Translations under genes and position numbers: made by a program
Assembly (NCBI GenBank): GCA_938039675.1
Contig: CALHUI010000015.1
Coordinates: forward strand, 124,001-188,000
Direction: 5' to 3'
Source: an uncultured Cytophagales bacterium
GTDB taxonomy: Bacteria; Bacteroidota; Bacteroidia; Cytophagales; Thermoflexibacteraceae
DNA: 64,000 bases
Notes under the pieces: model-generated
What the model saw: the letters and a program-made list of their open reading frames with translations, nothing else
The model's database searches: none
Told to the model about the DNA's origin: nothing
Part shown: positions 13,131 to 50,156 of the stretch, in pieces
How positions within the stretch are numbered: position 1 is the first letter of the stretch
Layout: each line of letters starts with the position of its first letter

Positions 13131-14009
13131 TTGAAAAATAACGCTTTTCACTCTTTGCTGCAATTGCGCAGCTCAGTTTTCAACACAGAGCATATTGACC
13201 AATATGCTCTGTGTTTTAAGTTACATGCAGGTATTTTTGAAGCCGTAGCCTTTCATATTGCCGATAAAATACTTGTATATTACGAACGTTTCAGCCTGTC
13301 TAAAAACTTTCCTCTTTCGGAAACCTTACCACAATTGATTATCCAGCATCTGTTTTTGGGTGCAGGCTATTGGAAGGAAATAGCATTGCTCGAGGCAGAA
13401 TATCCTTTTGTACAGGTGCCTGCCAAATTTTTCAGGGCAGACCAAGCTACGGAAATGCTGCAATTGCACAGCAGTCTCAAACTCGAACAAATGCGTACGG
13501 CATTTGTTTATCATACTGCGTTTAATTTGGTAAATATCTCTGGCTGCAACAACGAGCTGGCAACCATTCTTACAGAACTTTATCCGCTGCGCGAATTACA
13601 ATATGCCCACCTAAGCGATGCAATATTGCACGGTTTACATTCAATCCCTGAAAAATTAGATTACAGATATTTACATTTGTTTGTCAATCGAAATATACTC
13701 ACTGCCGCTTTTTTCAGGGCAGGCAATTTGCATTTACTGAATGCCTATCAATTTGATACACCGGAAGACTTTATTTACTACGTGCTTTTTATTACTACCC
13801 AACTTGGGTTAGATAAAGACGATACAGAGTTGTTGTTATGGGGAGATATAGGCGCATCATTTGCCGGCCGTCTTTCCATCTTGCAGCGCTACTTCCCTCA
13901 TGTGAGTTTTGGTTTCAGACCCAAAGGCCTGCAATATCATTACCAGTTTGATGATTTGGAAAATCATGCTGCTTTTGACTTATTAGGCGCTTATTACCTG
14001 TTTGCATAA
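13131..14009 (+). CDS. DUF3822 family protein
   Basis: A soluble protein with the features of DUF3822, a family found in Bacteroidota: two similar halves with an actin-like beta-rich pattern, including YLHLFVNRNILTAAFF near residue 175 and the C-terminal WGDIGASFAGRLSILQRYF. I take TTG at 13131 (MKNNAFHS) as the start because it comes just after the preceding gene ends. The frame is open for 38 further codons upstream, overlapping that gene. Members are often located near 16S rRNA methyltransferase RsmD or CoaD, neither of which is present here. Function unknown. Confidence 0.7.
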   Translation: MKNNAFHSLLQLRSSVFNTEHIDQYALCFKLHAGIFEAVAFHIADKILVYYERFSLSKNFPLSETLPQLIIQHLFLGAGYWKEIALLEAEYPFVQVPAKFFRADQATEMLQLHSSLKLEQMRTAFVYHTAFNLVNISGCNNELATILTELYPLRELQYAHLSDAILHGLHSIPEKLDYRYLHLFVNRNILTAAFFRAGNLHLLNAYQFDTPEDFIYYVLFITTQLGLDKDDTELLLWGDIGASFAGRLSILQRYFPHVSFGFRPKGLQYHYQFDDLENHAAFDLLGAYYLFA

Positions 14010-39950: not shown

Positions 39951-41864
39951 ATGCACATGCACCAAAAGGCAATCTTATGGGCAACTTTCTTATGGCTGAT
40001 AATTACAGAGGCTCATGGTCAGCTACAACTGATTCCGATATCTCCGCAACAGAACCGTTACCTGTACGATGCCGCGTATTTCGGCAGAACAGAAGAAAAC
40101 GGCGAAGATACCACACGATTGGCATTGCCTTTTTTTGATGATTTTTCCACTAACGGAAAGCTGGGTTTTCACAAAGGTCGCCCTGATGAGCCTGATACCT
40201 CGCGCTGGGTGCGTAACGGCGGTACTTTCGTTAATAATACCATCGCCATCAACCCGCCTTCATTTAACGTAGCTACTTTTGACGGCATTGCAACCAACGG
40301 GCGACCTTATGATTTTGCCAATCCGTTTGCCGTAGGTATTACCGACCAACTGACCTCTAAGCGAATCGACTTAGACACGCTGCGACCTCAGGATAATGTA
40401 TTCCTGAGTTTTTTCTGGCAAGCCGAAGGTTTAAGTGAAAGACCGGATGCAGAAGATTATTTGGCAGTAGATTTTTTAGACCGCAATAACAATTGGGTGC
40501 GTCGCTGGCAACAGAATGGCGGAACGGCTTCATCAGACTTTCGCTACGTTATCCTGCCTATCAATACAAGCAATTTTCTGCATAAAAATTTTCGTATTCG
40601 ATTTGTGCGCTACGGCAGGCAATCCGGAGCATTTGATACTTGGCATGTAGATTATATCTACATTAACAAAAACAGAAGTGCATCGGATAGCTCCTTGCTC
40701 GATATTGCAGCAAACGGCATCAAAGGTCGTTTTCTGAAACGCTACAGCGCAATGCCTATGCGGCAGTTTATCCAGAATCCTCAGGCCGAAATTGCGGATT
40801 CGCTGTTTCTTTCGGTCAGTAATTTAGACCGCCGTTTTAATGTGTTTTCCTACGATGCGGTGTTGAAAGATAAAATCAGCGGACGCGACTTAGGCTTGCT
40901 TGCCGATACAACCGCCATCATCGGCGAGTTTCGCCGCAATTTGCTGGTTGGAGCAGTAAACAGGGGGGTAGGTAAACGACCGCCTGTTGTGCTTCCGCTC
41001 AATCAGCGCCAACTTATCCTGGAAACAACTTTTCGGCTCAACACAGGTGAACGTGATGACTTAGTGCCGCCTATCAATTTTCGCAACAATGATACGCTGT
41101 GCCAACTAACTGTCCTTGACGATTTTTACGCCTACGATGACGGCAGCGCCGAGTTTGCCGTATCATTTAATCAACGCTTTGGCAAATTGGCTTATCGCTA
41201 CGAGCTCAATACACAAGCCGCCATTTCGCACATAGATATTTATTTCGTACCCATACTGACCAATTTGCAAGGTGAAACCTACAACCTGCGCATATGGAAA
41301 CAATTGGACGAGGAGGGTGGGGGAGCGCGCGATTCCATTTTACTGGTACAGAATACTTTTGTAAGCTACTCCGACAGCCTCAACAAGTTTATTCGGATTC
41401 CGCTGTCGCGGCGCATTCCTTTGCAAGGCGCGTTTTTTATAGGTGTCGAGCAGTTAAGCGATAAGCCGCTCGCCCTTGGCTTTGACCGAAATACGGACTC
41501 GGGCAGCGAAATATGGGTAAATGTAGCCAACAAATGGGAGCGAAATACACGACTGAGAGGAAGCATTATGCTTCGCCCTGTTTTTGCCGAAGACCTTGTT
41601 ACAAGCCTACCCGAAAATCAGTTAAATACACTTAACCCCATAGTATATCCGAACCCTTCGGCCGGTACTTTTACTATTAAAGGCAATGTTCGGCAAGTTG
41701 CAGTGTACGATTTGCAAGGCCGACTGATTTTACAAAAAACATCGGAACGCGCCGAGAATTTCCAAAACATATCGCTGGAAGGCTATCCTGACGGCATTTA
41801 TCTGCTTTACCTTGTAAATGAGCAAGATATAAAAATTGTAAAATTGGCTCTTCGGAGGCAGTAA
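39951..41864 (+). CDS. Secreted protein with T9SS type A sorting domain
   Basis: A 637-residue exported protein: signal peptide (about 1-22), a long beta-rich body with LPFFDDFSTNGK and repeated Gly/Asn loops, and a C-terminal T9SS sorting domain from about residue 566 with YPNPSAGTFTI, VAVYDLQGRLI and DGIYLLYL, ending in KIVKLALRRQ. The type IX system would carry it across the outer membrane and attach it to the surface or release it. The body has no catalytic motif I recognise, so an adhesin or structural role is more likely than an enzyme. A second ATG lies two codons downstream. Confidence 0.85.
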   Translation: MHMHQKAILWATFLWLIITEAHGQLQLIPISPQQNRYLYDAAYFGRTEENGEDTTRLALPFFDDFSTNGKLGFHKGRPDEPDTSRWVRNGGTFVNNTIAINPPSFNVATFDGIATNGRPYDFANPFAVGITDQLTSKRIDLDTLRPQDNVFLSFFWQAEGLSERPDAEDYLAVDFLDRNNNWVRRWQQNGGTASSDFRYVILPINTSNFLHKNFRIRFVRYGRQSGAFDTWHVDYIYINKNRSASDSSLLDIAANGIKGRFLKRYSAMPMRQFIQNPQAEIADSLFLSVSNLDRRFNVFSYDAVLKDKISGRDLGLLADTTAIIGEFRRNLLVGAVNRGVGKRPPVVLPLNQRQLILETTFRLNTGERDDLVPPINFRNNDTLCQLTVLDDFYAYDDGSAEFAVSFNQRFGKLAYRYELNTQAAISHIDIYFVPILTNLQGETYNLRIWKQLDEEGGGARDSILLVQNTFVSYSDSLNKFIRIPLSRRIPLQGAFFIGVEQLSDKPLALGFDRNTDSGSEIWVNVANKWERNTRLRGSIMLRPVFAEDLVTSLPENQLNTLNPIVYPNPSAGTFTIKGNVRQVAVYDLQGRLILQKTSERAENFQNISLEGYPDGIYLLYLVNEQDIKIVKLALRRQ

Positions 41865-42033
41865 TTTTTGGGAAAAATGCAAACTTTCGGGGTGAAAAAT
41901 ATTTTTTTAAAGACCTTGCTTGCAGCCCTTTCCGAACGTGTCAAGGGTTTTCAGAATTTTTTTTTTCAGTTTTTTTGCTTCACTTTTGTTTCCCGTGTCG
42001 TTCAATACAGCGGGGCAAAAGATATTTAGAACC

Positions 42034-42086
42034 TTTTGTTAATCTTTAACAAAATGCACTGACAGTGCATTTTGACATAACAAAAT
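42034..42086. repeat. Three interleaved palindromes ahead of dnaA
   Basis: TTTTGTTAA-tct-TTAACAAAA (42034-42054) is followed by AAAATGCACT-gac-AGTGCATTTT (42051-42073) and ATTTTG-acataa-CAAAAT (42069-42086). Adjacent palindromes share four or five bases, so neighbouring hairpins cannot form at once. The second looks like a terminator for the upstream T9SS-cargo gene, but the whole array may regulate dnaA or belong to the origin region. The 280-bp gap 41865-42151 holds no gene and no TTATCCACA DnaA box. Confidence 0.6.
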
Positions 42087-42151
42087 TGATGTGTTTACCC
42101 TTTACATAGCTTGCATAAAAGCAAGCCTTGTGTACTTTTTGCGCTCTCAAA

Positions 42152-43669
42152 ATGGTGTCTGACAGTTTAAATTACAAAAGCGAACAATCAATGATTGACC
42201 TGAAAAAGCCATCGGTAGCGACGGTATCGAACACTACTACGGCGAACAAACAGCAGGACCACATAACAGCATGGCAACAGTGCCTATCGCTGATTATTCC
42301 TGCCGTTGGCGAGCAGGCATTTCAAACATGGTTTCAACCCATTGTCCCCATTCAACTGACCGACAATGTGCTTGTCATACAGGTGCCCAACCATTTTTTC
42401 TATGAATGGCTTGAAGAACACTACGTGCATGTCTTGAAACGTGCTATTGTGCAGATTTTGGGGCTGCAAGGCAAGTTAGAGTATTCTATTGTGGTAGACC
42501 AAAACAATGGTAAGCAACCCTATACCCTAAACATTCCTCAAAATATACAGACACCGCCTGCGCAGCGCCCTTTGCGCAACTCAATGGGGCAGGGGGTAGT
42601 TGTTTCAGGCGGGGGCAAAGAACTATTTGACTCAAATCTTAACCCGCGTTATACTTTTTCCAATTTCATAGAAGGCGAGTGCAATCGCTTGGCACGTGCC
42701 GCCGGTATGTCTGTTGCCAGCAAACCCGGATTTACCTCGTTCAACCCGTTTTTGGTGTATTCGGGTGTCGGTTTGGGCAAAACCCACCTGATTCAGGCAA
42801 TCGGCAACGAAATTCAGCGCATTCATCCGCGCCATCAAATATTGTACATCACGTCGGAAGATTTTATCACCCAATTTGTTGATGCCCTAAAATTGGGGGA
42901 GATGCGCCGTTTTGTCGGACAGTTTCAAAAAGCCGATACACTGATTATTGACGATGTGCAGTTTTTTGCAGGCAAAGACAAAAGTCAGGAGCAGTTCTTC
43001 CATATTTTCAATCATTTGCATCAGAACGGCAAGCAGATTATCATGTCCAGCGACTGCGCACCCAAAGACATCAAAGGGCTGATGGAGCGCCTGTTGTCAC
43101 GCTTTAAGTGGGGCGCAACCATAGACTTGCAAGTACCTGATTATCAAACCCGTACTGCTATTGTGCAAACTAAGCTCAACGCACAAGGAATTCAGGTGTC
43201 CGATGATGTGGCGGACTTTTTGGCGCAACACGTTACAGACAATATTCGCACTTTGGAAAGTGTGGCAACTACTCTTGCGCTGCATTATACCATCGGCAAG
43301 TCGGCGCTTACACTGGAACTTGCCAAAAAGGTTGTATCTAAACTGTGCAATACTGCGGAGGAATTGAGCGAAAAGCGCTTCAGCGTAGTGCAAATCCAGC
43401 AGATGGTTGCCGAGCATTACTACCTCAAAGTGAGCGACCTATGTTCTTCATCGCGCAAGCCGGAGTTGGCAGTTCCCCGACAAATAGCCATGTATTTGTG
43501 TGCGCAATTCAGTGATGTTTCCAATAAATTAATTGCTTCCCAGTTCGGTGGCAAAGACCAAAGCACTATTTCACACGCATGTAAAGCGGTTGATAAGAAG
43601 ATGCAAAAAGATGAAACCTATCGGAAACTCATTGGTGCGCTGAAAGCAAAACTTAGCAACCTGCGCTAA
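42152..43669 (+). CDS. dnaA: Chromosomal replication initiator DnaA
   Basis: Binds and opens the replication origin; 505 residues from the chosen ATG. Domain I (about 38-110) has ITAWQQCLSLIIP and WFQPIVPIQL; domain II is a Pro/Gln linker; AAA+ domain III has Walker A GVGLGKTH (205-212) and Walker B LIIDDVQFF (264-272), plus RLLSRFKWG and the arginine-finger region; domain IV ends with the DnaA signature QFGGKDQSTISHACKAVDKK. Starts upstream at TTG 42128 or downstream at ATG 42191 are possible. A near -7 box (TACTTTTTG at 42131) argues against 42128. The gene is preceded by a palindrome array. Confidence 0.95.
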   Translation: MVSDSLNYKSEQSMIDLKKPSVATVSNTTTANKQQDHITAWQQCLSLIIPAVGEQAFQTWFQPIVPIQLTDNVLVIQVPNHFFYEWLEEHYVHVLKRAIVQILGLQGKLEYSIVVDQNNGKQPYTLNIPQNIQTPPAQRPLRNSMGQGVVVSGGGKELFDSNLNPRYTFSNFIEGECNRLARAAGMSVASKPGFTSFNPFLVYSGVGLGKTHLIQAIGNEIQRIHPRHQILYITSEDFITQFVDALKLGEMRRFVGQFQKADTLIIDDVQFFAGKDKSQEQFFHIFNHLHQNGKQIIMSSDCAPKDIKGLMERLLSRFKWGATIDLQVPDYQTRTAIVQTKLNAQGIQVSDDVADFLAQHVTDNIRTLESVATTLALHYTIGKSALTLELAKKVVSKLCNTAEELSEKRFSVVQIQQMVAEHYYLKVSDLCSSSRKPELAVPRQIAMYLCAQFSDVSNKLIASQFGGKDQSTISHACKAVDKKMQKDETYRKLIGALKAKLSNLR

Positions 43670-49923: not shown

Positions 49924-50156
49924 GGCTTTTTAGTATAAAAGATGATATTAAAAAATGTACTATAATAATAATTATGTTAAATAATAGTTATTGATAATGC
50001 CTATATTTGTCGCTTGTCTGCTCAAATTTCGCTCTGTTACACTTGCAGTCTTATGTTGTTGTTACATAAGCGTCTAACTATTTGAAATCCATTGGATTAT
50101 TATTTAAGGCGTAAAATTTGTTGCAACTAATAATAAATATTCAACAAGTTATTATC
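49924..50156. other. AT-rich region before the OmpA/PD40 gene
   Basis: No gene is seen. It is strongly AT-rich between about 49930 and 49990 and may hold the scar of the lost kinase part. TATATTTG at 50002-50009 is a good -7 box and would give the next gene a leader of about 140 nt. Confidence 0.4.

Follow-up and report, generated by a model that had tools for sequence, protein, structure and literature searches.

The DNA immediately upstream of dnaA in a member of the Bernardetiaceae (Cytophagales, Bacteroidota) carries three palindromes that overlap one another, and such an arrangement raises the question of whether they belong to a replication origin, to a switch acting on dnaA expression or to neither. 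The earlier note, made from the letters of a 64,000-nucleotide stretch (the window, whose numbering we use unless the contig is named), proposed attenuation-type control of dnaA or protein binding at an origin. Our analysis indicates that the palindromes most likely represent a leader hairpin of the dnaA mRNA and not part of an origin. More specifically, and with a probability that we put at roughly 55%, the dnaA mRNA of Bernardetiaceae would begin with a structured 5′ leader that contains them and tunes DnaA synthesis. Comparison supports the promoter footprint, the location of the hairpins beyond it, the stability predicted for hairpins B and D, hairpins at the position of B in relatives, and the proximity of dnaA to a dif-like site; the exact start, the production of the leader RNA and the regulatory step are inferred. 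The gene following the palindromes is indeed dnaA, as the earlier note had it: it is the sole Bac_DnaA match in the genome (a 3.28-Mb draft in 34 contigs), and no viral relatives of it were found. G001, G002 and G003 below are congeners, G002 being the nearest.

Features of the dnaA region (window coordinates)
Feature	Position	Strand	Sequence or remark
GTCAAG box of the putative promoter footprint	41940-41945	+	40-41 nt from CAnnTTTG
T-rich stretch between the boxes	41955-41977	+	-33 element region; T runs recur in relatives
-7-like element	41981-41988	+	CACTTTTG; like Bacteroidota TAnnTTTG but first base C
Inferred 5′ leader of dnaA mRNA	41993-42190	+	3′ limit 42151 with ATG 42152 as the start codon
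P1, first palindrome	42034-42054	+	TTTTGTTAA-TCT-TTAACAAAA; 9-bp arms
Hairpin B, central palindrome	42050-42074	+	CAAAATGCACTG-A-CAGTGCATTTTG; 12-bp arms
P3, third palindrome	42069-42086	+	ATTTTG-ACATAA-CAAAAT; 6-bp arms
TTGACA of a possible second promoter	42072-42077		TTGACA, then 18 nt, then TACCCTTTA; overlaps B right arm
Hairpin D	42109-42126	+	GCTTGC-ATAAAA-GCAAGC; absent from the earlier note
U-rich box after hairpin D	42135-42141	+	CTTTTTG; by-eye anchor for the hairpin-position tests
dnaA	42152-43669	+	start ATG 42152 or ATG 42191; ATG 42191 conserved in G001 too
dif-like site	49955-49982	+	ATGTACTATAATAATAATTATGTTAAAT; 6.3 kb past dnaA; sole match of the derived pattern in the genome

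All three perfect dyads described at 42034-42086 are present, with 42050-42054 common to P1 and B and 42069-42074 common to B and P3. The symmetry of B is near-perfect, its centre included, and B is bordered by AAAA and TTTT. When the 326-bp intergenic stretch was simulated 2000 times with a first-order Markov model (perfect arms, loop up to 8), an arm of at least 9 occurred in 7.3% of copies, an arm of at least 11 in 0.6%, and an arm of at least 11 together with a second of at least 9 in none. The whole 273-kb contig holds eight perfect inverted repeats with arms of at least 11, B among them. B is longer than chance predicts; P3 is unremarkable and does not exceed chance. Two elements of the region had been overlooked previously, namely hairpin D and a conserved block at about 41900-41990. 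Elsewhere in the window, its longest perfect inverted repeat (13182-13215, 16-bp arms around a 2-nt centre) lies within a predicted ORF.

An origin element bound by initiation proteins is suggested by the position upstream of dnaA, and AT-rich DNA and palindromes are often present at replication origins. The composition of the contig argues against it. Cumulative GC skew rises to contig position 148,987 (about 24,987 in the window) and then declines. Third-codon-position skew of plus-strand genes exceeds that of minus-strand genes in 8/8 bins before 160 kb of the contig; after it the order is reversed in five of six bins, the exception holding three plus-strand genes. An origin-type switch would be a cumulative minimum, whereas the switch near dnaA is a maximum, and a maximum near dnaA combined with normal polarity therefore points to a terminus. 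Thus the GC-skew turning point, which the earlier note had put forward as a check, is of the terminus and not of the origin type. Polarity was controlled in one complete genome, G039, through 20 sampled stretches of 20 kb: skew is +0.028 at 2.80 Mb and -0.030 at 3.15 Mb, on either side of a dif-like site at 3.05 Mb. A single later sample is weakly positive. The minimum among the samples falls near 6.3 Mb, with dnaA at 0.92 Mb. The dif-like site therefore marks the terminus in that genome, and dnaA is not at its origin. The skew profile of G020 is irregular and decides nothing on polarity.

The cumulative skew maximum and the dif-like site past dnaA are some 25 kb apart. This site is the best match on the 273-kb contig, at 3 mismatches, to a general dif pattern of the E. 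coli type; the pattern is loose and not specific, giving 38 matches genome-wide against 71 for its reversed control, with two other places better at 2 mismatches. A tighter pattern derived from the site itself (TATAATN4ATTATGTTAAA, at most one mismatch) has one match in this genome and zero for the reversed control. Across the order it is present in 48 of 59 genomes, exactly once in 36, with 62 matches in total against 32 for the reversed control. The dif-like site also lies 8 kb past dnaA in G003 and, at 2 mismatches, in G002; in G001 it is on the same contig as dnaA, 65 kb upstream. The site and the cumulative skew peak are no more than about 30 kb apart in our genome and in G002; in G003, where the curve is broad, they stand side by side. 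The left arm of the candidate departs from the Proteobacterial form. In common with the dif chromosome-dimer resolution site, the candidate has the 28-bp layout and the right arm TTATGTTAAAT, and it likewise lies near a terminus-type skew switch (PMC3025954).

Hence dnaA appears to adjoin the replication terminus, and because of this location we do not regard the palindromes as part of an origin. The remark that classical DnaA boxes are missing is borne out, since 41865-42190 contains none at 0-1 mismatch to TTATNCACA (four sites occur at 2 mismatches). As for an oriC elsewhere in this genome, no box cluster was seen by eye among the first 100 of 150 matches. With a terminus-type switch on the contig, a dif-like site 6.3 kb from dnaA and no box at 0-1 mismatch, an origin element is extremely improbable; oriC at the palindromes was rejected on the skew and the dif-like site. 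The earlier note would have given up its proposal if the origin mapped far away and the palindromes were unique to this strain. The origin is apparently elsewhere, while B, as described below, is kept in one congener and re-formed in another. Among titles and abstract openings we found no report of a terminus-located dnaA in Bacteroidota/Bacteroidetes or Cytophaga, a search with most subscription journals outside its scope, so that novelty is unproven.

If not an origin, the region may be read as a transcription unit, and here comparison supports 41940-41988 as a putative dnaA promoter footprint, made up of GTCAAG, a spacing of 40-41 nt and CAnnTTTG. In the congener alignment the block upstream of the palindromes is more conserved than the palindromes themselves, and other genera also have it ahead of dnaA despite a different preceding gene. 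The exact footprint occurs in 15 of 50 Cytophagales dnaA upstreams, spread over five families, where 30 rounds of Markov copies gave 0.03 of 50 on average; at up to one mismatch it occurs in 20/50, against 0.7. It is absent from 29 of the 50 even at one mismatch, and it was not found in 3 of the 12 family genomes with dnaA (G004, G005, G007). The 50 upstreams derive from 56 dnaA-bearing genomes, six of which (G016, G023, G036, G040, G047, G048) are without a fetched upstream. A pattern made for the conserved block is single-copy in 7 of 59 genomes and then always upstream of dnaA, including in G006, which was unused in building it. When 241 genomes were drawn, 39 of them had matches to a T-rich form of the footprint, at 41 places, against 10 for the reversed control. 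Loci were checked for 30 of these places: 20 are in genomes beyond the first 59, and 15 of the 20 sit 48-66 nt before the dnaA start (eight genera, several near-duplicates); among the 10 in earlier genomes, six are upstream of dnaA and four elsewhere. A wider regulon is not claimed, GTCAAG-YAnnTTTG having three matches in the genome and three for the reversed control.

The footprint can be set beside the housekeeping promoter of Bacteroidota, which has -33/-7 elements of TTTG/TANNTTTG and, in Flavobacterium, a -7 element TAnnTTTG that ends 4-5 nt before the start, with leaders averaging 33 nt (PMC6847099). In both, the -7 or -7-like element finishes in TTTG, and the start, here a predicted one, follows at a short distance. 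They differ in three respects: the first base is C instead of T in 15/15 exact footprints, although our pattern permitted T; T-runs replace a clear TTTG at the usual -33 spacing; and the GTCAAG box is an addition 40-41 nt upstream. By analogy, the dnaA mRNA would start near 41993, 4-5 nt past the -7 element, and the palindromes would therefore lie in a leader of 160-200 nt (about 160 nt to ATG 42152, 198 nt to ATG 42191).

Predicted folding of this leader is dominated by B and D. Ensemble pair probabilities are 0.77-1.0 for B and 0.98-1.0 for D, against at most 0.13 for P1 and at most 0.05 for P3, both of which are predicted barely to form; an outer stem that pairs the left arm of P1 with the right arm of P3 has a probability of up to 0.39 and could coexist with B. 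The fold of our leader (41989-42181) has a z score of -2.93 relative to 200 dinucleotide shuffles, with -3.10 in G002, -2.38 in G003 and -3.62 in G008, from another genus; values are weaker in G009 (-1.88), G001 (-1.39) and G010 (-0.84), and G011 shows no effect (+0.22). Nine short leaders from other families average about +0.2, their shortness lowering the power of the test. Two genomes were omitted from the fold tests, G006 for its 918-nt leader with repeats and G042 for an ATG call that gave a length of 0. On our contig, the pre-dnaA region (from TTG 42128) has the third most negative fold among 89 upstream regions. No second copy of the leader was found that would mark it as a repeat or mobile element.

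Relatives keep these hairpins unequally. A single change breaks a pair of P1 already in G002, P1 is unrecognisable in G003 and G001, and P3 is not kept in relatives. In G002 the arms of B are intact around an altered loop. In G003 the hairpin is formed anew, one A-U pair having become C-G and the loop having moved, and in G001 its place is taken by a 13-pair hairpin of different sequence that includes G-U pairs. D is kept in G002, shows a paired G-C to U-A change in G003 and is an imperfect stem in G001. Conservation of the palindromes upstream of dnaA, which had been suggested as a check, therefore holds for B in G002 and G003 and fails for P1 and P3; the picture of a chain of mutually exclusive hairpins does not survive this comparison and the predicted probabilities. 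Formal covariation among the three congeners is slight, being equalled in 46 of 500 shuffles.

At the position of B, sequence-unrelated hairpins appear to recur in other genera, with uneven support. The position was anchored by eye on the U-rich box after the alignment had been viewed, so p values are indicative: 0.002 in our genome, 0.014 in G003, 0.046 in G009, 0.004 in G010, 0.002 in G008, 0.21 in G011 and 0.17 in G001, thus below 0.05 in 5/7 genomes (Fisher 3e-7, leaving out G002 as near-identical to our sequence). The D position, tested in the same way, gave 0.010 in our genome, 0.048 in G003, 0.016 in G008, 0.068 in G009, 0.16 in G011, 0.24 in G001 and 0.60 in G010 (Fisher 9e-4), and is not significant in the last four named. 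In the short leaders of other families, a 5′-terminal hairpin reached a Fisher p of 0.008 with 3 of 13 representatives below 0.1, a weak signal that we do not claim.

The symmetry of B would also suit a DNA operator. In that model a dimeric protein on the double-stranded 25-bp palindrome represses or activates transcription of dnaA, acting as a roadblock past the promoter or next to a second promoter with a -33 region that runs into the right arm of B. The overlap of TTGACA with that arm and the retention of GTTTACYCTTT after it in three congeners fit this model, whereas TTGACA itself is not kept in G003, and the half-site sequence of B is altered in G003 and lost in G001 though a hairpin remains. 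Moreover, the genome has one exact copy of B and one site at 1 mismatch, the latter within the 3′ portion of an ORF (ORFs were inspected at three of the ten loci returned by the regulon search), and we consider an operator unlikely. At up to 3 mismatches, the palindrome pattern ATGCACTNNNAGTGCAT has 144 sites across this same genome where its reversed form has 43, an excess that could, but need not, be due to composition. We attach a similarly small chance to the stretch between promoter and dnaA being a separate small RNA or a drifting spacer with functionless hairpins. Fast sequence turnover between genera, the weak hairpin tests in G011 and G001 and the sufficiency of 48-66-nt leaders in other families are in its favor; the folds of our genome, G002, G003 and G008 (z between -2.4 and -3.6) and the paired change preserving D are not. 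An Rfam 15 search over 41600-42400 returned a best E of 0.067 with all hits below gathering scores, which counts against a known small RNA only.

The attenuation-type control proposed earlier holds up in the general form of control through the leader, the palindromes being downstream of the putative promoter and B among the most stable hairpins. Its classical form, with B or D as intrinsic terminator and P1/P3 as anti-terminators, is very unlikely. Overlapping dyads are typical of such switches and the AAAA and TTTT flanks of B would suit one, but a search of the + (dnaA) strand over 41860-42260 turned up no terminator-like site, P1 and P3 are not kept in relatives, and the predicted probability of P1 is low. 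Neither the congener comparison nor the pair probabilities revealed a conserved alternative anti-terminator pairing.

In the structured-leader reading that we prefer, transcription would begin near 41993 from the GTCAAG-CAnnTTTG promoter, and the nascent leader, roughly 160-200 nt long, would fold into B and D. These hairpins may set the DnaA yield per transcript through RNA stability, processing or translation, possibly by way of a bound protein or a small RNA, with P1 and P3 at most accessory. The dnaA leader of Caulobacter crescentus is 155 nt long and its deletion abolishes the growth-phase fall of DnaA (PMC4489657). The leader predicted here would be comparably long, and post-transcriptional control of DnaA is proposed for both; Caulobacter belongs to another phylum and the role was shown there by deletion. 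We see a likeness in kind and claim no homology. In Bacillus subtilis the antisense RNA ArrA acts on the dnaA 5′ untranslated region, which is likewise RNA-level control at the dnaA leader but by a separate antisense RNA (PMC12112137).

A broader and decidedly speculative scenario is that in this genus dnaA moved to the replication terminus, with a structured leader RNA governing DnaA synthesis. If so, dnaA would be duplicated last in each round, its dosage step coinciding with termination, and leader-RNA control would set when the new dnaA copies give enough DnaA for the next initiation. To our knowledge, control of the DnaA level in Bacteroidota has been little studied. Together, a dnaA promoter footprint common to several families of one order, a structured leader in one of these families and the location of dnaA next to a dif-like site instead of the origin would make gene-dosage and leader control of initiation directly testable. 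They also counsel against taking dnaA as an origin marker in Cytophagales.

Two leaders of relatives have features of their own. Upstream of dnaA in G006 (L011), a unit of about 70 bases starting near CCTTGCCAATGGTTGAACGG is repeated between the footprint and dnaA, lengthening the leader to 918 nt. The dnaA leader of G008 (L008, 1244-1491) contains neighbouring inverted repeats with arms of 12, 9, 6, 6 and 8, some of which overlap like the P1/B/P3 chain.
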